Of a DNA stretch of 21,977 bases, positions 2,857 through 21,977 are shown one piece after another. The translations under genes and the position numbers were made by a program. Position 1 is the stretch's first letter, and each line of letters starts with the position of its first letter. Source of the DNA: a virus; the IMG/VR virus record IMGVR_UViG_3300030061_004585, positions 14,496 through 36,472 of that record. One strand, given 5' to 3'. Below the pieces are notes generated by a model. That model worked only from the letters and a program-made list of their open reading frames with translations, did no database searches and was not told the origin of the DNA.

Positions 2857-3395
2857 CAGCGACCAAACCTCACTTTAACCTGCCGGCCGGTCAGACGTCG
2901 GCGTTTTCCATTGGGGCTCTCTCGCGCGATCTCGCGCTTGTACCGATCGCGCAGCAACATCAGGTCAGCGATCGATGTACGGACCAGCGACCGGCCGTTG
3001 ATCGCGTAGCTTTCCTGATCCTTCGTCGCGCGCCCCTCGATGACCGCCTCGATCGAGGCAAGCACTCGCTGCGCGTGACCACGTGCCTCAAACCCGGCAT
3101 GGACCGACACCAGATCCGCAGCGATGGTCAGCTGGCCGGCTTCGACCTCATGCACATCCTCCCCAGAGACGGCACGGACCGACACCGCATAGGTGCCAGC
3201 GTCCCAACCCGAGGTCACGGCCGCGGTTTCGGCGAACAAATGCCCAGACCCGAGCGGTGCCGCTTCCAGATCGATCGAAGACGGACCACGGATGATCGCC
3301 GTCAACGTCCACTCCGGTGCCGGATATGCATCGACATGCACCTCGGCCTTGATGCTTAAGCCGGCCGTGACTGAGCTGGGAAACTGATGGAGCAA
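2856..3395 (-). CDS. gpW-like head-tail connector with extra N-terminal domain
   Basis: 179 aa. The last 75 residues (ASIEAVIEGRATKDQESYA... DLMLLRDRYKREIARE) resemble the gpW-type head-tail joining helix pair, which binds below the portal before tail attachment. The first 95 residues look like a beta-rich, Ig-like module (AEVHVDAYPAPEWTLTAIIRG, AGTYAVSVRAVSG) that lambda gpW (68 aa) lacks; such longer forms are common in lambdoid-like phages of alphaproteobacteria. The start is TTG at 3395, 6 nt after the terminase stop. An AGGT lies upstream of it; no in-frame ATG lies close by. The stop overlaps the portal ATG. The gpW assignment rests on position and short pattern similarity, the N-terminal fold on inspection only. 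Confidence 0.75.
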   Translation of the reverse strand: MLHQFPSSVTAGLSIKAEVHVDAYPAPEWTLTAIIRGPSSIDLEAAPLGSGHLFAETAAVTSGWDAGTYAVSVRAVSGEDVHEVEAGQLTIAADLVSVHAGFEARGHAQRVLASIEAVIEGRATKDQESYAINGRSLVRTSIADLMLLRDRYKREIARESPNGKRRRLTGRQVKVRFGR

Positions 3396-3401
3396 ACCTG
3401 A

Positions 3402-5321
3402 CTACCTATTGCTGATCCGCCCTGATCCACGAGGTCGTGTGCGGCGCGTTTTACCTCGCCTAGTCTTGCGAGCCTTTGGCTTCGCTTCCTCTGGCGGTTC
3501 CCCCGCGACCGTTTCACCCTCCGCAACATGATCGTCGTCGGGTTTGAGCCGGCGCAGCCGCACCAAAATATTCGGGTTCAAGATCTTCAGCGCGGCATAG
3601 GCATAGACCCGACAATCGAGCGCCTCGTTTCGGTCGCGGGTTTTCTTCCACTCGCGGATTGGGAAGCCCCGCACGAACCGGGTCACCAACCGCTCGGCCG
3701 TCAGCTGGTGAAACCACTCCGGATCCCGATCGACAGGCCAGTGGCAATAGCCCTGGCCGGGCGTGTCCTGCTTCGCCCGACGCATCACAATCAGCTTGGC
3801 GTCATTGACCCCGATCGAGAACAAGGTCACCGGCCGCGCGCGCTTACCCGACTTGGACTTCTTCGGCGCAGACGCGATCGGATTGTCCCACCCCTTGCCC
3901 CCCTTAATGGCAAAGATGTTGCGCCGCTGCTTCCCGCGCAGCTGCTCATAAGCCGCTTGGGTCAGGCCACCAGAACCACCGGTGTCGACACACGCAGAGG
4001 CAATCCGCATCTGCGCCCCGGATTCGTGCTCGAAAGTTTGGTCGAGATAGTCAAAAAGCTGGTTCCAGACTTCAGGCTTAAGCGGGTCTCCCCAGAAGAC
4101 TTGATGATCGAGGCTCCAACTTTCCTCGCCCAACCCCCAGCCGACGCGCTCGAGCTCGAGGCGATCCTCCTGCATGTCGACACCGCAGGTCTGGACGCCG
4201 ACTTCCATCGGAACCTTCGATGGGAACGGCTCGGCCCGCGCGATCAGCTGCTCGACCTCGAGCGTCTCGGCCTCTTCCTCCCAGGCTTCCGCAAGCGTGA
4301 CGTTGACGAAGGTCTGCAGATCCCCGGCCGCTTTCTTGTCCAGGAACGACTGCACGATCATCTTCAGCTTCACAAAGCAGGAATAGAGCCCATTGAGATG
4401 ATAGGACGCATGCCCCCGGAACGGCTTCTTTGCCTTCCACCCATGCCCCAGCCGCTCAGCGTTTCGGATGGCAAAGTAACGATCGGTGTCCGACCAAACG
4501 CAGCCATTCGCCCGGCACTCATAGTAGGCGCTCTCGGGCATGTGCTCGCCCTCGGCGTTCTTGTCCCATTTGACGTTTGACCACTCGATCGTCTGGACAG
4601 TATCGCAATGCGGACAGGCCACATGGAACTGACGCTGATCCCCCTGCTCGTAGGCGTGATCGATCCACGAAATCCCGCGGATTGTTGGCGTCGAAATCTC
4701 TACCAGCTTGCGCTGATCATCAAAGGTGTTGGCACGCTCCCACAGCAGACCGACGGGATGGCCCTCGGCCGTGCGATCGTAGCCGTCGGTTTCATCGCAG
4801 ACGATGAACGGTGCAGACCGGCCGCGCTGCGTCTTGGGCGATCCGGACCAGGCGAACATGATGAAGCCGCCCGGATAGGACTTCATCCGCGTGTTATTCA
4901 CCCCCTTGCGCGCCCGAGGCGTAGCGATCCGCGTCTCAAGGTCGGGGTTGGCTTCGACCAACGGGTTAAACTTCGTCGTCAGCCATGTCTGCAAGTCGCC
5001 TTCAGACGGCTGCATCATCAGCTGCGACACCGGGTCATGCACGATCTTGAAACCCTGAGCACAGAGAGCCAGCTGCGTCTTGCCAACCTGCGCGCCCCAT
5101 TTGAGCGTGATCCGGTGACACGATGGGTCGGCCGTCATGTCCAACGGCTCACGCTGATACGGCGCGTTGTCGAAACTGATCAGACCGGGGATCGCGTTGC
5201 CGACGGGGATTTGAACTGACTGCTCCGCCCACTCGGACGGCTTCAAATCAGGGGGCGGTGCCAAGCCTGCAAGAAACGAGGTGGCCACCATCAATGCGGC
5301 GCTACCAAATGGCCAGGACAT
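3402..5321 (-). CDS. Terminase large subunit, GpA family
   Basis: 639 aa DNA-packaging motor and headful/cos nuclease. The Walker A-like GAQVGKT lies at residues 76-82 and the Walker B FIVCDE at 172-177, as in lambda gpA relatives. A four-cysteine zinc-binding cluster (CPHCD at 236-240, then C269 and C274) and the nuclease-domain start GVDMQ (Asp382), with a second acidic motif ACVDTGGSGG, complete the family pattern. The C-terminus is a basic linker containing AGEPPEE (encoded by a 21-bp repeat) and an Arg/Lys-rich tail. The ATG at 5321 overlaps the small-subunit stop as TGATG. GpA-type enzymes usually package by recognition of cos-like sites. Confidence 0.96.
   Translation of the reverse strand: MSWPFGSAALMVATSFLAGLAPPPDLKPSEWAEQSVQIPVGNAIPGLISFDNAPYQREPLDMTADPSCHRITLKWGAQVGKTQLALCAQGFKIVHDPVSQLMMQPSEGDLQTWLTTKFNPLVEANPDLETRIATPRARKGVNNTRMKSYPGGFIMFAWSGSPKTQRGRSAPFIVCDETDGYDRTAEGHPVGLLWERANTFDDQRKLVEISTPTIRGISWIDHAYEQGDQRQFHVACPHCDTVQTIEWSNVKWDKNAEGEHMPESAYYECRANGCVWSDTDRYFAIRNAERLGHGWKAKKPFRGHASYHLNGLYSCFVKLKMIVQSFLDKKAAGDLQTFVNVTLAEAWEEEAETLEVEQLIARAEPFPSKVPMEVGVQTCGVDMQEDRLELERVGWGLGEESWSLDHQVFWGDPLKPEVWNQLFDYLDQTFEHESGAQMRIASACVDTGGSGGLTQAAYEQLRGKQRRNIFAIKGGKGWDNPIASAPKKSKSGKRARPVTLFSIGVNDAKLIVMRRAKQDTPGQGYCHWPVDRDPEWFHQLTAERLVTRFVRGFPIREWKKTRDRNEALDCRVYAYAALKILNPNILVRLRRLKPDDDHVAEGETVAGEPPEEAKPKARKTRRGKTRRTRPRGSGRISNR
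3486..3506. repeat. 21-bp dispersed repeat, copy 2
   Basis: Same 21 bp as copy 1. On the minus strand it encodes AGEPPEE in the same frame, in the disordered C-terminal tail of the terminase large subunit. Only the inner 4-bp stem is kept beyond the repeat edge. Confidence 0.9.
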
Positions 5322-5873: not shown

Positions 5874-7253
5874 TCACTTGCCAGCCTCCCCTCGTTTGCC
5901 GCGCAGATCGTCAAAGCGATCGGACGTGCCCTCCAAGACAGCCTGCCCCCCGGTGAAATCCTGCCAGCGTTTCACGATCACGTCCGCGAACCGTGGATCC
6001 AGCTCCATCAGCCGCGCGACACGGCCGATCTTCTGCGCCGCAATCATCGTGCTCCCCGAACCGCCGAAAGGATCCAGGACCAGATCACCGCGCCGGCTAC
6101 TGTTCTTCAGGTACTGCATCACCAACCCGACCGGCTTCATGGTCGGGTGCTCGGTGTTGCGGCTCGGCTTTTCGTGGCGCAGCACCGACGACACCAGCTC
6201 CTCGACCTGAAGGTCAGAACCTGAAACGCGCAGATGGCCGGATCCCGTGTCGATCAACAGCGACCCGTCCTCTTTGACGACGAACGGCAGATCCTCCGCA
6301 TCGATGACGGTTGTCTGCTTACGCCCGCCAAACCACAGGTGCGGTGCGCCAGGCTTCCAGCCGTAAAGGATCGGCTCGTGCCGCCACTGATAATCCGACC
6401 GGCCCAGGACAAGGCTCGGCTTCACCCAGACCAGGCAGCCAGACAGTTTGAAGCCCGCGGAGCTGAAGGCTGTGCGAAACGGCAGCCCCTCGGTGTCAGC
6501 ATGGGCGACATAGAGCGCCCCGCCTGGCTTGACGGCCGAGAACACAGAAACAAAAGCATCGGTCAGAAAGGCAAGGAACGCATCCGCGGCCATGTTGTCG
6601 TTCTCAATCTTGCCGGCCGTGCCCTCGTAATTCACGTTGTAGGGGGGATCGGTCCAGCACATATCGACCAGCTCATCACCGATCAGCCGCTCGATATCGG
6701 ACATGACCGTGGAGTCCCCACACATGATGCGGTGATCACCGCAGACCCACACATCGCCACGCCGAGAAACGAAGTCCCCCCCGATCGGCGGCACCTCGTC
6801 GTCTTCGGTTTTTCCTTCCTCTTCCAGGCCGTCAAGATCGACAAAAAGCTCGTCTAATTCGGATTGATCAAAGCCCACAACTCCGAGATCAAATCCCAGA
6901 TCGCGCAGCTCACCGAGCTCTAGCTTCAGCAGCTCATCATCCCATCCGGCGTTCAGCGCCAGCTTGTTGTCGGCGATGATATAGGCGCGCCTCTGCTCGT
7001 CTGAAAGGCCGGTAATTCTGAGGCACGGAACCTGCGACATCCCTATTTCTAAGGCTGCAAGCACACGGCCGTGGCCGGCGATGATGGTACTGTCCTCACC
7101 GACCAACACCGGGTTGGTGAACCCGAACTCGCGGATCGATGCCGCGATCTGGCTGACCTGCCCAGAGCTGTGGGTCCGCGAGTTTCGGTCGTAGGGCGTC
7201 AGGTCACCAGGCGGCAACATCTCGACGTCGGTGTAAGAAATCAGATCAGACAA
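5874..7253 (-). CDS. ParB-N domain / beta-class DNA methyltransferase fusion
   Basis: 459 aa. Residues 1-140 are a ParB/Srx-like N-terminal domain (PVLVGEDSTIIAGHGRVLAALEIG). From about residue 165 there is an adenine-N6 or cytosine-N4 methyltransferase: TDPPY at 201-205 precedes the AdoMet-binding DPFGGSGST at 394-402, which is the beta-class motif order. The start is TTG at 7253, chosen because AGGAG lies a few bases upstream and no suitable ATG exists. It is an orphan enzyme with no restriction partner; phages often use such enzymes to evade host restriction or to mark their own DNA. It lies between the lysis and packaging genes. Confidence 0.93.
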   Translation of the reverse strand: MSDLISYTDVEMLPPGDLTPYDRNSRTHSSGQVSQIAASIREFGFTNPVLVGEDSTIIAGHGRVLAALEIGMSQVPCLRITGLSDEQRRAYIIADNKLALNAGWDDELLKLELGELRDLGFDLGVVGFDQSELDELFVDLDGLEEEGKTEDDEVPPIGGDFVSRRGDVWVCGDHRIMCGDSTVMSDIERLIGDELVDMCWTDPPYNVNYEGTAGKIENDNMAADAFLAFLTDAFVSVFSAVKPGGALYVAHADTEGLPFRTAFSSAGFKLSGCLVWVKPSLVLGRSDYQWRHEPILYGWKPGAPHLWFGGRKQTTVIDAEDLPFVVKEDGSLLIDTGSGHLRVSGSDLQVEELVSSVLRHEKPSRNTEHPTMKPVGLVMQYLKNSSRRGDLVLDPFGGSGSTMIAAQKIGRVARLMELDPRFADVIVKRWQDFTGGQAVLEGTSDRFDDLRGKRGEAGK

Positions 7254-7591: not shown

Positions 7592-7755
7592 CCTGCATCC
7601 TCCTCATAGTTTTGATGTTTTCCAGCGATTGACGCTCTTTAGCGTCAACTCTGCCCTCGCGCTCTCTGAGCTCGCCCAGCCAAGATGGCAAGCCCGAGCA
7701 TGAGGTAGCGTCCCCATGCCGAGCGCATAAACCGATGTGCAAGCAAACCGATCAT
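7524..7755 (-). pseudogene. i-spanin (Rz-like) gene, apparently frame-disrupted
   Basis: An ATG at 7755 overlaps the endolysin stop as ATGA and encodes 36 aa with a membrane segment (WGRYLMLGLAILAG) that ends at TGA in frame one. The +1 frame directly after it continues as an alpha-helical, charged sequence (LREREGRVDAKERQS, then a stretch ending RRSVVTRLRKGNF) down to TAG at 7524. A membrane anchor followed by such a helix is the layout of inner-membrane spanins, but here the halves are in different frames, joined somewhere near 7665-7690. The o-spanin starts within the second half. Either a natural frameshift, a sequencing error or recoding could explain it. The two halves together would give about 76 aa. 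Confidence 0.6.
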
Positions 7756-14154: not shown

Positions 14155-14351
14155 ACGCACACATCAAACCGACTTCGGGCACTACCATCTTGTCTCCTGC
14201 CCGCGTCGCTCTCTATGTGTCGACGTTGGAACAGAAGCTCGGCCGCCAAATCGGCAAGGCAACGATTTTGCCAGGCGGCGGGATTGAGGTGGAGATAGCA
14301 GGCCATGACAAATCTTCTAACCCAGCTGACCTTGTGGACATGACTGAATGA
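14151..14351 (+). CDS. Hypothetical 66-aa protein coupled to integrase
   Basis: 66 aa (ILSPARVALYVSTLEQKLGRQIGKATILPGGGIEVEIAG) with a predicted helix followed by a beta-hairpin. It is tied by ATGA overlaps to both neighbours. A small gene directly before an integrase is often an excisionase or directionality factor, but I see no clear winged-helix signature, so this is inference from context. It is acidic at the C-terminus. Confidence 0.6.
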   Translation: MNAHIKPTSGTTILSPARVALYVSTLEQKLGRQIGKATILPGGGIEVEIAGHDKSSNPADLVDMTE

Positions 14352-15382
14352 AGGGACGCGACCTTCCCTCCTACATCCATCGGCGCAAACGGGACGGTAA
14401 GCTGTTCTTCCGGAAGCGCTACGGCGCGAAGATCGTGGAGATCCCGCTCCAGACCCAGTTTCCCGCGGGCGACCCTGTCCCCTTTGCCCTGCACCAGGAA
14501 CGTGAGCGCATGCTGAACGCCCCCATGCCGGTGGCTGAGGGTAAGACAGTCACTCACGTGATCGAGCGCTACGAGCGGTCTGACGATTTTGCGAACCTCG
14601 CGCTGCGAACGAAGGCTGACTACCGGCAGCACCTAGACTTTCTTCAGGACAAGATCGGACACTTGCAGCCCAAGGCGATCGAACGTCACCACGTCATCAA
14701 GTGGCGGGATACATGGGCAAAGAAAAGCCCGCACAAAGCCAACTATCGCCTGCGCATTCTGAAGATTGTCATGGAGCGCGCGATCGACTTCGGCCTGCTG
14801 CCCACGGGCGGCAACCGGGCTAAGGGCGTGCCCGAGGTGAAGTACGAAAAGAAAGAGCGGATGCCGTGGCCGGCCGAGATGATCGACGCCGCGCGGGAAA
14901 ACGCAGAGCCCCGTACCCGGCTGCTGTTCGAACTTCTGCTCGGCACCGGCCAACGCATCGGCGATGTGCTCAAGATGAAGTGGTCAGACTTCGACGGAGA
15001 GGCGATCAGTGTCCGCCAGGGCAAGACTAAGGCCAATTTATGGATCCCAGCGCCACAGATGCTCCTGCAGGCCCTAGGGAGCGCCCAGCGCAGCTCGGTA
15101 TTCATTCTGACGAACCAGGCGCAGACAGGCCCCTGGTCCTATCGAGGCGCGGCCGATGGTATGATGAAGCTACGCCGTCAAATCGGTGCTGAAGCTTACG
15201 ATATCCACTCTCTGCGCTATACGGCGACAGCTGAGCTGGCACGCGTTGGCTTAGACGATGATCTGATTATGGCCATCACGGGCCACAAGACGCACCGTAT
15301 GGTGCAGCTGTACGCCGGGGCAGAGAGGCAAAAGCTACGCGCAAAGGCAGCCAACGTGGCGAGGCAACGCGGTTCCTTCTGA
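14348..15382 (+). CDS. int: Tyrosine-recombinase phage integrase
   Basis: 344 aa, complete. The N-terminal part (about 10-60) is an arm-binding-type region rich in basic residues and 65-150 is the SAM-like core-binding domain. The catalytic domain carries Arg203 (TGQRIGDVLKM), a beta-hairpin Lys at about 226-228 (RQGKTKANLWI), His287 and Arg290 (HSLRYTA), His313 (GHKTHRM) and the nucleophile Tyr322 (VQLYAG). It catalyses site-specific integration and excision. It is the last gene of an ATGA-coupled set. A decayed copy of its C-terminal half lies at 16991-17298. No tRNA or att repeat is found near its 3' end. Confidence 0.96.
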   Translation: MKGRDLPSYIHRRKRDGKLFFRKRYGAKIVEIPLQTQFPAGDPVPFALHQERERMLNAPMPVAEGKTVTHVIERYERSDDFANLALRTKADYRQHLDFLQDKIGHLQPKAIERHHVIKWRDTWAKKSPHKANYRLRILKIVMERAIDFGLLPTGGNRAKGVPEVKYEKKERMPWPAEMIDAARENAEPRTRLLFELLLGTGQRIGDVLKMKWSDFDGEAISVRQGKTKANLWIPAPQMLLQALGSAQRSSVFILTNQAQTGPWSYRGAADGMMKLRRQIGAEAYDIHSLRYTATAELARVGLDDDLIMAITGHKTHRMVQLYAGAERQKLRAKAANVARQRGSF

Positions 15383-15591: not shown

Positions 15592-15870
15592 ATGAAATTT
15601 CGCACCTTAGCTTTAGCCGTGATGCTCGCAGGCCTAAGCAGCACTTCAATAGCGGAAACAAATTTAGCCAAGACGACACCCGTTCAGTCTACCGTGGACA
15701 GCACCACGCCGGTAGAACTTTGGTCCCAAATTCTGAACGCTCGCGACGGCGCAGTCGTATATTCGGCAGCCTGCTGCAAAGTATGCCGTAAAGGGAAAGC
15801 CTGTGGAGACAGCTGCATAAGCCGGTCCTACACTTGCCGCAAGGGCGTCGGATGCGCCTGTGACGGCTGA
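15592..15870 (+). CDS. Small secreted cysteine-rich protein
   Basis: 92 aa. A signal peptide (KFRTLALAVMLAGLSSTSIA, cleavage likely after Ala21) precedes a 38-residue spacer and a compact C-terminal Cys cluster with eight cysteines (positions 61, 62, 65, 71, 75, 82, 88, 90) in the pattern CC-x2-C-x5-C-x3-C-x6-C-x5-C-x-C. The core KGKACGDSCISRSYTC is a motif I associate with small exported proteins of unknown function in many proteobacteria. Metal binding or disulfides are possible. The start has a weak ribosome site; a GAGG-containing stem lies about 20-45 nt upstream. It could be a lysogenic-conversion gene of the prophage or older cargo. Confidence 0.72.
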   Translation: MKFRTLALAVMLAGLSSTSIAETNLAKTTPVQSTVDSTTPVELWSQILNARDGAVVYSAACCKVCRKGKACGDSCISRSYTCRKGVGCACDG

Positions 15871-15921: not shown

Positions 15922-15958
15922 CACTTAAATGAGCACTACTAGGTGGCTCGCTTAAGTG
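15922..15958. promoter_or_regulatory. Interrupted inverted repeat upstream of the DUF3883 gene
   Basis: CACTTAA-at-GAGC (15922-15934) pairs with GCTC-gc-TTAAGTG (15946-15958) over an 11-nt loop. It ends about 50 nt before ATG 16010 and has no T-tract, so an operator or leader structure is more likely than a terminator. CACTTAAG recurs once after the integrase fossil (near 17327). Confidence 0.4.
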
Positions 15959-16009
15959 GTTAGAGGGTGTCTTTGGCCTGCGCTCAAAAAACTTAAAGGT
16001 AGATGCACC

Positions 16010-16924
16010 ATGCCGCTTATATTGACCCAAAACGAAGTTAATGTGAGCGACGCTCACAACTGGCAAGACGACGAAGGTGTACAATACCACTACCCCACGA
16101 AATACCGAAACAAGGTCTTAGAAGGCGAGCGGTTTGTTTACTACCGCGGGGTAAATCGATTGAACGGCAAGCGAGGCGATGCCCACTACTTCGGCACCGG
16201 CCGGATAGGATCGATTACACAGGATCCCGACCCTGAAAGACAAACGGGCGTCAAGAAAGCTTGGTTTTGTCAAATCGAGAATTATGAGCGTTTTCCAACT
16301 GACGTTCCTGCCAAAGTCGATGGAATACTGAGGGAACAGGGCCCGAGCAATCAATTCCGCGATGGCGTTCGCGTAGTTGACGACGAAACATTTGAGAGCA
16401 TCTTAGAGGCGTCCGGCTTAGCACAGGGCTATGCAGCACCAGGTAACGCCTTCCCTCAGCCCGAAAACGTTTTCGCCAAACCTGCCGGCAACTTGCTGGT
16501 ACCGTCTAAAGACAATGCTGGCGGCGGGAACTCGTCACCCCGCCACTCACGTCATGCGAAAGTTATAGGAGATTGGGCCGAAGAACTCGCTCTTCATATT
16601 ATACAAAATATTGAAGGCTCAACCAATCACATTCACCGCGCTGCTATTGGAGAGACGCCTGGATGGGATCTGGACTATCTAGATGCCGATGGGCAACTTC
16701 AGCGAGTGGAGGTAAAAGGAACACAAGCAGCGGCGTTCCGAAACATAGAGATCACAGCAAACGAATTGGCTGCTGCAAAACGTTATGAAAGTGATTTTTC
16801 GTTGTTTCTCGTAGCCAAGTGCATGTCAAACTCACCCAGCTATCAGATAATTAGTGACCCTGCCCATTTACTAGAACACCACGGGTGGAACATTCAGCCA
16901 ACTGTTTTCAGAATTAGCTTTTGA
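16010..16924 (+). CDS. DUF3883 PD-(D/E)XK nuclease with EVE/PUA-like N-terminal domain (Type IV restriction candidate)
   Basis: 304 aa from ATG 16010 (AAAGG upstream); the frame is open further 5' but without a ribosome site. Residues 1-105 (AHNWQDDEGVQYHYPTKYRN, GERFVYYRGVN, HYFGTGRIGSIT, WFCQIENYERFP) resemble an EVE/PUA-like DNA-base-reading module found at the N-terminus of restriction enzymes. A Gly/Ser linker (150-180) joins it to a DUF3883 domain: GDWAEELA at 187-194, GWDLDY at 218-223 (Asp220) and VEVKG at 233-237 (Glu234, Lys236) form the PD-(D/E)XK core. Predicted role: cleavage of DNA carrying modified bases. It lies between the prophage integrase and an integrase remnant. Nuclease activity and base specificity are inferred. 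Confidence 0.78.
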   Translation: MPLILTQNEVNVSDAHNWQDDEGVQYHYPTKYRNKVLEGERFVYYRGVNRLNGKRGDAHYFGTGRIGSITQDPDPERQTGVKKAWFCQIENYERFPTDVPAKVDGILREQGPSNQFRDGVRVVDDETFESILEASGLAQGYAAPGNAFPQPENVFAKPAGNLLVPSKDNAGGGNSSPRHSRHAKVIGDWAEELALHIIQNIEGSTNHIHRAAIGETPGWDLDYLDADGQLQRVEVKGTQAAAFRNIEITANELAAAKRYESDFSLFLVAKCMSNSPSYQIISDPAHLLEHHGWNIQPTVFRISF

Positions 16925-16990
16925 AATAGGCGGGATCATGGCGCTAAATGAAGCACAGTTCGCCATGACTTTTATCCTGAACATTGATAG

Positions 16991-17298
16991 CGGAACTCGT
17001 TGTCCACTCTTATGAATCGGGCGCAGACACGCCCCTGGTTCTATCGAGGGGCTGCCGATGGCAAGATGAAGCTGCGCCGCCAAATCGGTGCTGAGGCATA
17101 TGACATTCATTCGCTTCGCTATACAACGACGGCCGAGCTGGCTTAGAAGACTACTTGATTATGGCTATTACCAGCCGAAAGACCCACCGTATGGTCCAGC
17201 ATTGCGCCGCCGCGGCGGGGGCAGATGCTTCGGGCGCGAGCTGCTACAGTCGCGCGCGAGAGAAAGCTTTAAGCGCCAAAACAACTGTCATTATTTAG
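16991..17298 (+). pseudogene. Decayed 3' fragment of a second integrase of the same family
   Basis: From 16991 the sequence can be aligned, with gaps, to the 3' part of the intact integrase (about 15095-15370). Close stretches include PWFYRGAADGKMKLRRQIGAEAYDIHSLRYT against PWSYRGAADGMMKLRRQIGAEAYDIHSLRYT. A deletion of about 10 bp after ELA shifts frame (TAG at 17144-17146); the downstream frame resumes as DYLIMAITSRKTHRMVQHC and ends at TAG 17298. The catalytic His of GHKTH became Arg and the Tyr nucleophile region reads HC, so it cannot be active. The 5' half is absent. Confidence 0.9.
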
Positions 17299-17323: not shown

Positions 17324-17491
17324 CAGCACTTAAGACGCTACCCACCGCATTTGACGTTAGATAAAACTACCAAAAAGTAAAACGCGAGAATAATACATAA
17401 CCGCTTCTGTCACGCAAACTCACGCTATAGGTGAGAGAGTGCTTTACCAGGATCCAATGGGAGCGTAAAATCCACGCTGGAGGCGCAGAGA

Positions 17492-18352
17492 TTGACCAAG
17501 CCCATCAGGATCACGGTTAGCGGAACGGATCACCGTGGGGGCGACGCCCCCACTGTTGAAGACTTGCTCGCCCAGATCCAAGACTTTGTTTTCGTTCTAC
17601 GCGAAGTAGAAGATGCCGTGTCTGGAGGAGGTCCAGATGAAATTGTTTGGCGCGTTACCAACGCTACAAGAAATTCGCCGCTCACCTTTGAAGTGACGCC
17701 AACCCCGAAGCGCCACGCGATGAATATCGACATGCGAGCGACAAAGGTTATTCAGACGACTGCGCGAGGCTTAGCGCAGCTTGCGCGGACAGGTGAGCGC
17801 CCAGCGTACTTCACGGATCAAGTGGTGGACCGCGCCACCAAAGTCTATGCCAGAGTGACCAATGGATTGGCTGCTACTACGGTGGATTTTAGCGACTACG
17901 AAGGTGCGCCGAATCTGAACGCGACACCTGATAGCGCGAGGGATGTTGCTAGAAAGTTGAATGCGGTAAAACGACCAGCACCGACCGCTCACAGGGAATT
18001 GGGATCTCTAGAGGGGTTCATATCCAAAGTCGAGCTGGATGGCTTCGGGAGGCCTTTGGTCTGGTTGAAATCCCGTTTAGACGGTCAACTTGTAAAGTGT
18101 GTAGCACAGGATAAAGGGCTAGACCGGATTGGACATTTCGAAGTGTCCGAAATCTTGAGGGGCATGCGTGTGCGCGTTCACGGCCTAATCACCTATAAAG
18201 ACGTTGAGGTGATCGCGTCTATAGACGTCGAAGGCGTCCATGTGTTTGAAGCTGATAATAATTTGCCAGATCACCACAAGATCGTGTCATCAAATTTTAC
18301 GCGAGGTGTCGAAGCTAGCGAATACTTAGAGAGGCTGCATAGCGATGGCTAG
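17492..18352 (+). CDS. Unknown 286-aa partner of a PIN-domain protein (putative antitoxin or defence component)
   Basis: The TTG at 17492 is chosen because GGAGG lies 8 nt upstream (17479-17483) and no ATG fits. I do not recognise the family. The N-terminus (IRITVSGTDHRGGDAPTVEDLLAQIQDFVFVLREVEDAV) begins with a beta-strand and helix, the middle (VVDRATKVYARVTNGLAATT) is mixed, and residues about 170-260 (GSLEGFISKVELDGFGRPLVWL... MRVRVHGLITYKDVEVIASIDVEGVHVFE) look like a small beta-barrel. It shares 8 nt with the downstream PIN gene, so they form one unit. The 193-bp upstream interval holds a CTCAC/GTGAG inverted repeat (17419-17435) that may be an operator. It is far longer than usual VapB-type antitoxins. 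Confidence 0.7.
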   Translation: MTKPIRITVSGTDHRGGDAPTVEDLLAQIQDFVFVLREVEDAVSGGGPDEIVWRVTNATRNSPLTFEVTPTPKRHAMNIDMRATKVIQTTARGLAQLARTGERPAYFTDQVVDRATKVYARVTNGLAATTVDFSDYEGAPNLNATPDSARDVARKLNAVKRPAPTAHRELGSLEGFISKVELDGFGRPLVWLKSRLDGQLVKCVAQDKGLDRIGHFEVSEILRGMRVRVHGLITYKDVEVIASIDVEGVHVFEADNNLPDHHKIVSSNFTRGVEASEYLERLHSDG

Positions 18353-18869
18353 ATTGCCTTGGGTTTACTGGGATGCATGCACTTGGATCGCGTACATAAA
18401 TCAGGAAAAAGAAATCGCGCTGAAAGACAGCGTTTTTGAAAATCGCTTCGCGATGTGCCTTGAAATCCTAGACCGTGCAAACGGCAAAAAGCTTGAGATC
18501 GTAACCTCTGCCTTCACTTTGGCGGAGGTGTGCAAAAATCCGGAAGTGCGAGAGAGCCCCCTGGATAATCTACCCGGTTTCTTTGAACGTTCGTATATAG
18601 TGACTGTACCAGTCGACATGTCTATTGGCCGTAGAGCTCAACACATGCAGGCGAGCGGTTTAGTAAGCCTGAAACCCGCCGACTCGATTCATTTAGCGTC
18701 GGCGATCAGAGCGAAGGTATCCGAATTTCATACATTTGATCGCGGAATTTTAAAGCTTGATGGCCTCATACATGGTGCTGATGGAAAGCCTATTAAAATC
18801 TGCAAGCCGTCTGAAGGCCCACCCTTGGGCCCGCTATTTGACGGAACTAACGATCACGACGCGCAATAA
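18345..18869 (+). CDS. PIN-domain ribonuclease (VapC-like)
   Basis: 174 aa. The four acidic positions of PIN nucleases are visible: Asp10 (VYWDACTWIAY), Glu61 (FTLAEVCK), Asp113 (LKPADSIHLASA) and Asp132 (FHTFDRGIL). Such enzymes cleave RNA, often tRNA or rRNA, and act as toxins in VapBC systems. The gene overlaps its partner by 8 nt. The C-terminal 40 residues (DGKPIKICKPSEGPPLGPLF) extend beyond the domain. The combination suggests a toxin-antitoxin or abortive-infection module; the target is unknown. A likely terminator follows. Confidence 0.85.
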   Translation: MARLPWVYWDACTWIAYINQEKEIALKDSVFENRFAMCLEILDRANGKKLEIVTSAFTLAEVCKNPEVRESPLDNLPGFFERSYIVTVPVDMSIGRRAQHMQASGLVSLKPADSIHLASAIRAKVSEFHTFDRGILKLDGLIHGADGKPIKICKPSEGPPLGPLFDGTNDHDAQ

Positions 18870-19512: not shown

Positions 19513-20430
19513 CTAGGCGTGATCACCGTCAAGCATATCGCTTAAAAATTCATCCAATCCAGCGGGCATCAAACTGACGCCAGCCCACTCAGAAAAATTT
19601 ATTGCTGAGTACTTAAATGACGCTTCCGGCTTATTAATAGGAAACAACTCCCTATCGACGGCCTTTCGTTCTGATTGAAGCGCTTGAAGGAAATGCTGCA
19701 TAAATGCCCTGTGAAACTTTCCGCGAGCTCGCTCAAGAAACGGTAATCTTTCAAATTCTTCACACAAAGCGTCCAAATCATCTTCAGGTATATCGACAGG
19801 CTTATCTATTGGCAGCTCGCTCGCATCCAAAGCTCGATATTCATATCTCCCTGTTATCTCTACCAATTCATTCAACTTCTTAGGAAGAGACACTCCCGTA
19901 TCAATTCGGGCGCGCCTGATACAGAACACGCGCTTTTGAATTTCTTCCGATGCTATTCTGTACTGCTCGAATAGTTCGCAAAATTTATCACGAGCTGCCC
20001 TTTTTTCCGAAATCAGCCCTGCGCACGAAAAGCTTGTATTCAGAATATGATCCAGAACGTTGTGACATATGAAATAATTCTCGATGGCGTATCTATCTGT
20101 CATAAATACGTCTTTTGATGGCGTAAAACCTGCCCAATCATCGTAATCCCGATCTACAATGTAGATCGTCGGTTTATCTTTAATGCGCCTGTTTCTAGAC
20201 ACAATTTGCTTCAACTTAAATACCTTCTCCTTTCCTCCACATGGAAGAAGCTCGATGTGATCGCTAAATCCATTTCTAATGAACCAAACCTTCCAAACCC
20301 CGACGTCTTCACGTCCTTCGATTGCTGCAACAGGGACGTCAGGCTGTTCCGAGCGAATGTCCAACAATCTAGCAAAGGCAACCGGTGCCGCGTCCCTTTT
20401 GCTTCGAGCAAAGCTGACTAAATCACTCAT
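19513..20430 (-). CDS. DUF4435 / TOPRIM-like effector of a PARIS-like system (AriB-like)
   Basis: 305 aa. The TOPRIM-like core shows Glu38 in VAAIEGREDVGVW, the acidic pair Asp93/Asp95 in IYIVDRDYDDW and IENYF at 116-120, the DUF4435 pattern seen in PARIS AriB. In PARIS (AriA/AriB), AriB is a nuclease reported to cut tRNA once released by AriA in response to a phage anti-restriction protein such as Ocr. Here the ATG at 20430 overlaps the ATPase stop by 1 nt (TAATG), giving the AriA-AriB order. Length fits. The helical C-terminal half (FHRAFMQHFLQALQSERKAVD) has no recognised motif. The same architecture could also belong to another AAA/DUF4435 pair not yet tested. Confidence 0.8.
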   Translation of the reverse strand: MSDLVSFARSKRDAAPVAFARLLDIRSEQPDVPVAAIEGREDVGVWKVWFIRNGFSDHIELLPCGGKEKVFKLKQIVSRNRRIKDKPTIYIVDRDYDDWAGFTPSKDVFMTDRYAIENYFICHNVLDHILNTSFSCAGLISEKRAARDKFCELFEQYRIASEEIQKRVFCIRRARIDTGVSLPKKLNELVEITGRYEYRALDASELPIDKPVDIPEDDLDALCEEFERLPFLERARGKFHRAFMQHFLQALQSERKAVDRELFPINKPEASFKYSAINFSEWAGVSLMPAGLDEFLSDMLDGDHA

Positions 20431-21977
20431 TAGAACAATGTACCTTCACCGCCGTCGACTTCATCGCTGAACAAATCATCTATATCTGGCAAAAATTCAT
20501 TGAACTCAGATTCGGGACTTACGTAGTCGCGAGATATAACATCAAGATTACCTGCAAACTGGTCCATTTCGTTGTCAAAGATGAACGGCGAATGCGTAAT
20601 AGCAATCATCTGGGCAAAATCCGGAGACCGGCAAAGGTCTGGTATCAACTTTGTTTGCCACCCAATTGAAAGCGACAACTCAGGCTCATCGAAAAGAATA
20701 ATCTTCTTCTTCTCGTATAAGAAAAGGCGCGCAAATAGTGATACGACCTGTTTTTCTCCTGATGAGAGTGCATCGATTCGTATAGGAGCTCCTTGTTGCC
20801 CACTTGTGAAAAACGGCCTGAAATTCGCCCTATTTATCTCGATCTTCTTATTCTCTGGCGAAGATATGCTAAGCCCACCCTCCTTGAATGCCGTGCTATC
20901 CGCATCCATAAGGTAGTTATTACATGCTACTAGGAATCCATTCACTCGATCTTCGAGTGGCTTTGTAGACTTAATAGCTTCATTTAGGTTACTCAGAAAA
21001 TATAGCAGAAAAGGCTTCACGCCTTCATCAAAGTCACCACTATAAATCTTCTCAATATCCGGGAGAGCAATCTGTGCCACATTCCTCGATCGCGAGGCTC
21101 GGATTCGATCGAAGAACAGCTCGAGCTCCTCCTTATCAGGACGCCCATCTTCGGAACTGGTTTCCGCAAAACTTCCATCTAAAAGTTCATTAATAATGTT
21201 GGCGCTAATCTTCTGATAGGTGGTGTTCGACTTGCGTTGTATCTCTAAAAATATTTCTTGGAGCCGCTCAGATATGTCTGATAATCCAAACTTTATTTCG
21301 CTCGGCAACAGGTTTCCGCCTGATCTTTGGCTTTCCCCCCAATGGTTGACCCGTCGGGATTCAGTTTGAAGTCTAGGAAGAGACATTTCAATCCTACGAT
21401 ATGTCGGCAAGTACACAATGTCGTAATCGCCAATAACAGACTTCACATTATCCATAGCAATAGAAATATTTGGCACCCGTGTGTACATATATTTGATGCT
21501 TTGCATCAAGGCTTCATATATCGCCTTGTGGCCCAAACTAGGGTGCCTATCGTACAATTCACGCATTCCTGGATGAAATTGATAACGGCTAAAGCTTGCA
21601 CCTTCACCGATCGATTGTGCGACCTCTAATACATATTGGACGGAAAGGTTACAGTCGGAAGCAATCTTAGATATCTGGGATTCCGAAACGCCAAGCTTTA
21701 GTTCAACCATGTCCGAGTCAGTGATTGTAACTTGTTCACTATCTCGAAGTTTAAAGACGATGCTCTCAAACGTGAAATCAGTTAATTTATAAAAATTCGA
21801 CGTCAAAACCGCGTTTATCGCAGCTAACAATGTCGTTTTGCCAGATCCGTTTCTTGCCATAAGAATGGACGCAGAATCTTCTGTCGTAAAACTGATGTCC
21901 TTCCTACCATGAAGGCCAAGTATTCTAAATTCTTCTAAAAGCGGGCGAACTTCCAATCGATTAACAGCTGACGTCAT
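20430..21977 (-). CDS. ABC-type AAA ATPase sensor of a PARIS-like system (AriA-like)
   Basis: 515 aa starting at the window's right edge (ATG 21977; an upstream start cannot be excluded). The P-loop ARNGSGKTT is at 41-49, with Ala in the first Gly position of the usual GxxxxGK pattern. The ABC signature LSSGE is at 404-408, Walker B IILFDEPE at 427-433 and the H-loop ITHSP at 460-464. The roughly 350 residues between A and signature are the insertion typical of AAA_15/AAA_21 SMC-like ATPases. The acidic tail (EFLPDIDDLFSDEVDGGEG) is notable. In PARIS this ATPase senses phage trigger proteins and holds the nuclease partner encoded by the downstream gene. The coding region is AT-richer than the phage genes, consistent with separate acquisition. 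Confidence 0.85.
   Translation of the reverse strand: MTSAVNRLEVRPLLEEFRILGLHGRKDISFTTEDSASILMARNGSGKTTLLAAINAVLTSNFYKLTDFTFESIVFKLRDSEQVTITDSDMVELKLGVSESQISKIASDCNLSVQYVLEVAQSIGEGASFSRYQFHPGMRELYDRHPSLGHKAIYEALMQSIKYMYTRVPNISIAMDNVKSVIGDYDIVYLPTYRRIEMSLPRLQTESRRVNHWGESQRSGGNLLPSEIKFGLSDISERLQEIFLEIQRKSNTTYQKISANIINELLDGSFAETSSEDGRPDKEELELFFDRIRASRSRNVAQIALPDIEKIYSGDFDEGVKPFLLYFLSNLNEAIKSTKPLEDRVNGFLVACNNYLMDADSTAFKEGGLSISSPENKKIEINRANFRPFFTSGQQGAPIRIDALSSGEKQVVSLFARLFLYEKKKIILFDEPELSLSIGWQTKLIPDLCRSPDFAQMIAITHSPFIFDNEMDQFAGNLDVISRDYVSPESEFNEFLPDIDDLFSDEVDGGEGTLF

Follow-up and report, generated by a model that had tools for sequence, protein, structure and literature searches.

The window, by which we mean the whole stretch of DNA analysed (21,977 nucleotides, spanning 14496-36472 in a virus record of 36,472 bases), carries two overlapping genes, one for a 286-aa protein, hereafter the partner, and one for a PIN-domain ribonuclease (Table 1). 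The left part of the window is a prophage, with an integrase gene and with capsid-, portal- and terminase-like ORFs identified by reading. The preliminary description had given the partner 286 aa, a TTG start with a good ribosome-binding site and an 8-nt overlap with the PIN gene, and all these features were confirmed. A promoter scan gave no signal exceeding that of shuffled sequences, and the terminator-like sites (6 vs. a shuffled mean of 2.1) were not counted as evidence.

Table 1. Features of the window and of the related loci discussed in the text (window rows use window positions).
Feature	Locus	Position	Strand	Basis and remarks
Prophage integrase	Window	14348-15382		ORF listing
ORF of 92 aa	Window	15592-15870	+	Start signal-like, end cysteine-rich (CCKVCRKGKACGDSCISRSYTCRKGVGCACDG)
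322-aa protein, NOV_C domain	Window	15956-16924	+	PF13020, E 1.4e-12
Decayed partial copy of the integrase gene	Window	16989-17209		76% identity across 231 nt
IS1595-family transposase remnant, last 13 codons and stop	Window	17427-17468	+	IGERVLYQDPMGA, then stop; intact relative VGKRVLYRDSLGA, then stop
Ribosome-binding site GGAGG	Window	17479-17483	+	By-eye reading; 8 nt upstream of TTG
Partner (putative antitoxin), 286 aa, TTG start	Window	17492-18352	+	ORF listing
Overlap of partner stop and PIN start, 8 nt	Window	18345-18352	+	ORF listing
PIN-domain ribonuclease (putative toxin), 174 aa, ATG start	Window	18345-18869	+	PF01850; D10, E61, D113, D132
DUF4435 protein	Window	19513-20430	-	PF14491; PADLOC AriB, E 9.5e-20
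AAA ATPase	Window	20430-21977	-	PADLOC AriA, E 2.5e-33; extends past window end
Element with pair	L003 (Lentibacter sp.)			Pair 23 nt behind transposase; inverted repeats 22/24; 8-bp duplication TAATTTAA, 8/8
Element with pair	L005 (Methylobacterium oryzae plasmid pMOC1)			Duplication AATCGGAA, 8/8
Element with pair	L016			Duplication AAATCTCA/AAATCTTA, 7/8; ends alike at 21/24
Element with pair	L017			Duplication AAATATTT, 8/8
Element with pair	L031			Duplication CAAAACTG, 8/8
Element with pair	L033			Duplication CAAAAATA, 8/8
Element with pair	L074 (Roseomonas marmotae plasmid)			Duplication TATCTTTA, 8/8
Small ORF, motif variant	L005	3122-3310		By eye
Element with DUF433/PIN_10 pair	L067 (G237:C11)	Oriented ends 2170 and 5338		Duplication AAACGAAA, 8/8
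DUF433 and PIN_10 ORFs	L067 (G237:C11)	Oriented 3158-3853 and 3835-4245		Overlap 19 nt
DUF433-like ORF entering partner C-terminal fragment	L032 (G862:C40)	~6493-5719	-	By reading; other frame

The NOV_C protein lies behind the prophage integrase; its PADLOC matches, to C-termini of TmtA (best 1.8e-11) and to PDC-S36 (3.4e-7), are partial. The window also holds a decayed partial copy of the integrase gene, and therefore more than one element has inserted at this site. On the other side, 643 nt from the PIN/partner pair, the AAA ATPase and the DUF4435 protein are a predicted PARIS-like anti-phage pair.

Relatives of the partner were found at three loci in genome contigs, in one plasmid, in 6/289 alphaproteobacterial genomes, in 5/398 genomes of the phylum and in 5/390 genomes of the order of Lentibacter sp. 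(L003), with four genomes recurring among these searches. They yield 17 distinct pair loci (the window, L002-L005, L013-L017, L031-L036 and L074); 16 of them are the window itself or finds of the partner searches, and L074 was reached via its transposase. L002 belongs to Kiloniella laminariae and L004 to Marivita geojedonensis, whose contig stops within the partner. No relatives were found in three scans of viral contigs, nor in phage records; among plasmids, the L017 partner gave no match and the L005 partner recovered itself alone.

The PIN ORF matches Pfam family PF01850 (E 3e-8, 34.8 bits vs. a cut-off of 23.6). Its residues D10, E61, D113 and D132, which we take to be the catalytic acidic residues of the PIN family, are invariant in 13/13 aligned PIN proteins, and identity to the window protein drops to between about one quarter and one third among the relatives. 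The PIN gene has no match in PADLOC, NCBIfam or PHROGs, the PIN profile matched no solved structure by sequence (E≤0.01), and the structure model had a mean pLDDT of 33.9.

Antitoxins are usually about one third the size of the partner. The window protein matches no Pfam, PADLOC or NCBIfam family at E≤10 and no PHROGs family at E≤0.1; RHH, AbrB, Phd and HTH domains were likewise absent (Pfam, E≤10), and 12 relatives gave scattered single-member matches only (best E 0.005). The partners range from 246 to 288 aa and align from residue 1 through to the end, the residue encoded by the TTG start of the window being ATG in L002 and L003 and TTG in L004. An N-terminal alpha/beta part (residues ~1-160) is followed by a beta-rich C-terminal part (~170-252). 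The N-terminal part is variable and the conserved positions are mostly C-terminal: G171, E174, G175, C203, R226, G231 and Y235, to which W53 and A149 are added, with the conserved core G-x-x-E-G ... C ... R ... G in the C-terminal part. An AlphaFold2 model built from four sequences had a mean pLDDT of 61.8 (~75 in the N-terminal alpha/beta part) and placed six strands at residues 176-252. The barrel-like C-terminal region proposed in the preliminary description thus finds its strands in the model, but their pLDDT of just ~47-58 leaves the barrel itself weakly supported. Foldseek returned no match to the partner model at E≤0.001 (best E 0.035, probability 0.21), and the partner profile had 0 matches among solved structures searched by sequence (E≤10). 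The best VIA fold match (Z 7.0 over 100 residues at 3.6 Å, with rows mainly covering residues 1-143) was set aside because Z 7.0 falls within the tool's own background of 7-8. The beta-rich C-terminal domain is probably the part that binds PIN or nucleic acid.

A partner frequently found without PIN, which the preliminary description had named as an argument against its reading, was not what we observed. PIN follows the partner in 15/16 loci whose contig runs on, being open in 13 and frameshifted in 2, and the sole locus without it is L032, a partner fragment. In the 13 complete pairs the overlap values of the two genes span -2 to 17 nt, 12 of them above zero (that of L031 being 8, 14 or 17 nt depending on the start codon). 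At the sequence level this is the gene layout of VapBC-type loci, with the antitoxin position first and the genes overlapping or coupled. Divergence of the partner is correlated with that of PIN (Mantel rho 0.60, p 0.0005, n=13) and with that of the transposase described below (rho 0.59, p 0.028, n=7), and the correlation between transposase and PIN distances is weak (rho 0.38, p 0.065, n=7). Judged by their substitutions, the partner and PIN are real genes under purifying selection: for the window vs. L002 and L003, pN is 0.11-0.16 and pS 0.73-0.88 in both genes, and no dN/dS-type ratio is given because dS was saturated in most pairs. The two frameshifts lie around PIN codon 70-80, with the partner open (L034, ~6883-6899; L015, ~7612-7627). 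They would suit a toxin lost ahead of its antitoxin, but were not counted as evidence because the L034 shift falls in a stretch of seven T, where an assembly error is possible.

TIRs and an 8-bp target duplication are the defining feature of IS1595-family transposons. Seven pair loci (L003, L005, L016, L017, L031, L033 and L074) are complete elements with the order transposase, partner, PIN inside TIRs, and each shows the 8-bp target duplication, with 8/8 matches in six and 7/8 in L016 (Table 1). The right end of L016 lies 1.9 kb past PIN and was located by a one-ended scan, since the paired scan over 1.5 kb gave none. PF12762 and PF12760 were present in all six transposases scanned from the seven complete elements. 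Because L074 was found with the transposase, it is omitted from the frequency of the pair in elements, which is then 6 complete elements in 16 loci.

Transposase or its remains lie upstream of the pair at 12/17 loci, window included, and in five of these (the window, L002, L004, L013 and L035) the gene is a remnant or interrupted. Window positions 17426-17491 share 46, 46 and 45 of 66 ungapped positions with L002, L003 and L004, respectively, vs. a best score of 33 at any other window position on either strand (43,723 positions per relative). No TIRs with an 8-bp duplication were found around the window pair: the TIR search gave at best 13-14/24, with no end above the shuffled background (mean 13.9, maximum 17), and no homology to the element was found downstream of PIN. 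The right transposon end is retained in L002 (21/24) and L013 (20/24) against the same background, and L035 has both TIRs (22/24) with the duplication absent (3/8). At L014, L015, L034 and L036 no transposase was detected by tblastn, the L036 contig giving just 441 nt upstream. The pair remains open despite the broken transposase in L002, L013, L035 and the window. The window copy is a transposon remnant, and the pair is a passenger of an IS1595-type transposon, because relatives hold it behind the transposase within TIRs and others keep transposase remnants.

The pair is present at 2/30 related transposase loci (the best locus per genome in 30 genomes, from 49 matches in 289 genomes); this is a lower bound, because the flanks were 1.5 kb, some shortened by contig ends, and some copies are broken. 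A complete related element, L067, carries a DUF433/PIN_10 pair, so that one slot is filled by two distinct PIN-type pairs in related IS1595 elements. PMC2701414 counts DUF433-PIN among the predicted toxin-antitoxin types. The complete elements L068 and L070 (8/8 each) carry uncharacterised proteins instead of the pair, and L071 (7/8) has a small ORF alone as cargo; L069 and L072 gave no TIR pair, and that of L073 is at chance level only. At L032, a DUF433-like ORF runs into a C-terminal partner fragment, and this locus is a possible recombinant of the two cargo types; the fragment adjoins a restriction enzyme gene.

In L003, L016, L017, L031, L033 and L074, PIN is followed by a small ORF whose motif resembles F-K-E-A-A-R-E-L-x-x-D-D-D-E, and L005 has a variant of it. 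Scanning for this motif gave no match in the window, L002, L013, L014, L015, L034, L035 or L036. The ORF seems to belong to part of the transposon lineage rather than to the pair, because the same ORF stands beside related transposases without the pair (L068, L071 and L072) and has no match in L067 and L070.

We consider that the pair is probably the surviving cargo of an IS1595-family transposon, working as a type II-like toxin-antitoxin module with a large antitoxin and kept by addiction. From the gene order, the conservation, the behaviour of PIN/VapC proteins and the other toxin-antitoxin cargo type we infer putative toxicity, neutralisation and addiction. In the window, the transposase would have been deleted save its last 13 codons, with the pair left behind as cargo. 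The 286-aa partner would be made first, coupled to PIN by the gene overlap, and would bind and block PIN, which when free would act as a metal-dependent ribonuclease, cutting cellular RNA and halting growth. Were the element lost, stable PIN would persist without fresh partner; PIN would be freed, and the element is therefore proposed to be retained even once its transposase decays. The related L067 transposon, with DUF433 and PIN_10 in the same slot, speaks for this reading. Against it stand (i) a partner without any known antitoxin domain in the libraries searched and of about three times the common antitoxin size, with neither gene matched in PADLOC, NCBIfam or PHROGs; (ii) four of 17 loci at which the transposase was undetected; and (iii) the 2/30 transposase loci with the pair, the distant right end and 7/8 duplication of L016, the absent duplication of L035, the weak correlation of transposase and PIN distances, and a window copy without TIRs or element homology downstream of PIN.

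An anti-phage role in abortive infection, in which the partner would sense infection via its C-terminal barrel and then free or activate the PIN nuclease, is unlikely. The window copy does lie between the prophage integrase with its NOV_C protein and the PARIS-like AriA/AriB pair, the partner is bigger than an antitoxin need be, and the L032 fragment is next to a restriction enzyme. Elsewhere, however, the pair sits in a transposon or behind its remains, as it does at 12/17 loci when the window is counted, and neither protein matches any PADLOC-DB 2.0.0 model (E≤10). The neighbours tested are mostly non-defence genes: by reading of translations, the flanks hold secB- and dnaQ-like (L002), pntB-like (L014) and rho-like (L034) genes. 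Co-occurrence with defence genes was checked with 10 flanking proteins from 7 loci, of which 3 match PADLOC; two of these matches, to proteins whose translations read as a DnaQ-like exonuclease and as Rho-like, were judged generic, and by our judgement the restriction enzyme beside L032 is the one real defence neighbour. The preliminary description had suggested an undescribed toxin or defence pair. Its toxin half is supported at the level of sequence, with no match of the partner in the family libraries searched, two genes kept as a unit and invariant acidic residues; its defence half is not supported, and a passenger that preserves itself is a better reading of the pair than a system dedicated to fighting viruses.

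Still less probable is that PIN and the partner serve transposition control, limiting transposase mRNA or picking targets, rather than acting as toxin and antitoxin. The fixed position behind the transposase in the seven complete elements and the joint divergence of transposase and partner would fit such a role, but the pair is found at few of the related transposase loci and persists after transposase loss. Moreover, L067, L068, L070 and L071 are complete related elements with different cargo or no cargo, and the pair is therefore dispensable for transposition. It is very improbable that the locus is a standard VapBC operon whose antitoxin is fused or has had its start over-called: in the NCBI annotation the PIN gene on the Methylobacterium plasmid is a VapC family toxin, but the partner aligns with its relatives over the whole length and has none of the RHH, AbrB, Phd or HTH domains.

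With the transposon cargo reading preferred, we tentatively propose a broader model, for which the odds are somewhat against. The IS1595 lineage would consist of a backbone transposase, often with the small acidic-motif protein, and a slot exchanging unrelated toxin-antitoxin pairs. The partner would be a new family of PIN antitoxins; its N-terminal part, which is variable, and its conserved C-terminal barrel may enable it both to block the nuclease and to sense when the element is lost or mobilised, and the addiction modules would spread and outlive the transposon. PIN ribonucleases gain an unclassified, recurring partner family, spread by hitchhiking on a very small transposon. With two PIN-type pairs sharing one slot, it becomes testable whether toxin-antitoxin pairs pay their way by holding transposons in place. 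Genome scans should allow for the possibility that what looks like a defence-island PIN pair is a passenger stranded by its transposon.

IS1595-type elements with passenger genes (PMC11891212) and Tn3 transposons with toxin-antitoxin pairs (PMC7157771) are already known. The literature search, which covered sources other than ISfinder and the paper defining the IS1595 family (Siguier et al. 2009), turned up no description of PIN pairs carried by IS1595 elements. According to a review (PMC11891212), transporter IS (tIS) carry passenger genes, one example being the transcription regulator of ISNha5, a member of the IS1595 family. The elements described here are like tIS in their PF12762 and PF12760 transposase, TIRs starting with GG, 8-bp duplication and cargo behind the transposase. 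They are unlike the tIS described there in that the cargo is a pair of PIN and a large partner, and the window retains the transposase tail alone.

The swapping of PIN-type pairs in the IS1595 slot resembles what is reported for the Tn3 family, whose transposons carry PIN toxin-antitoxin pairs. In both, PIN toxins are passengers, the antitoxin is mostly upstream and one position of the element can hold pairs of different types (PMC7157771). The Tn3 family, in contrast, is a different one and has a resolvase, and the antitoxins given there for its PIN toxins are RHH_6, Phd/YefM or AbrB/MazE, unlike the 246-288-aa protein without a Pfam domain found here. With VapBC and other PIN pairs, DUF433-PIN included, the present pair shares the conserved acidic PIN nuclease and the overlapping upstream partner, but it differs from them in partner size and domain content. 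The PIN partners tabulated in the portion of PMC2701414 covered here are RHH, AbrB, PHD, COG2442, COG2886, COG2856, COG2880, COG1753 and MerR, and among these tabulated partners none resembles the 286-aa protein.
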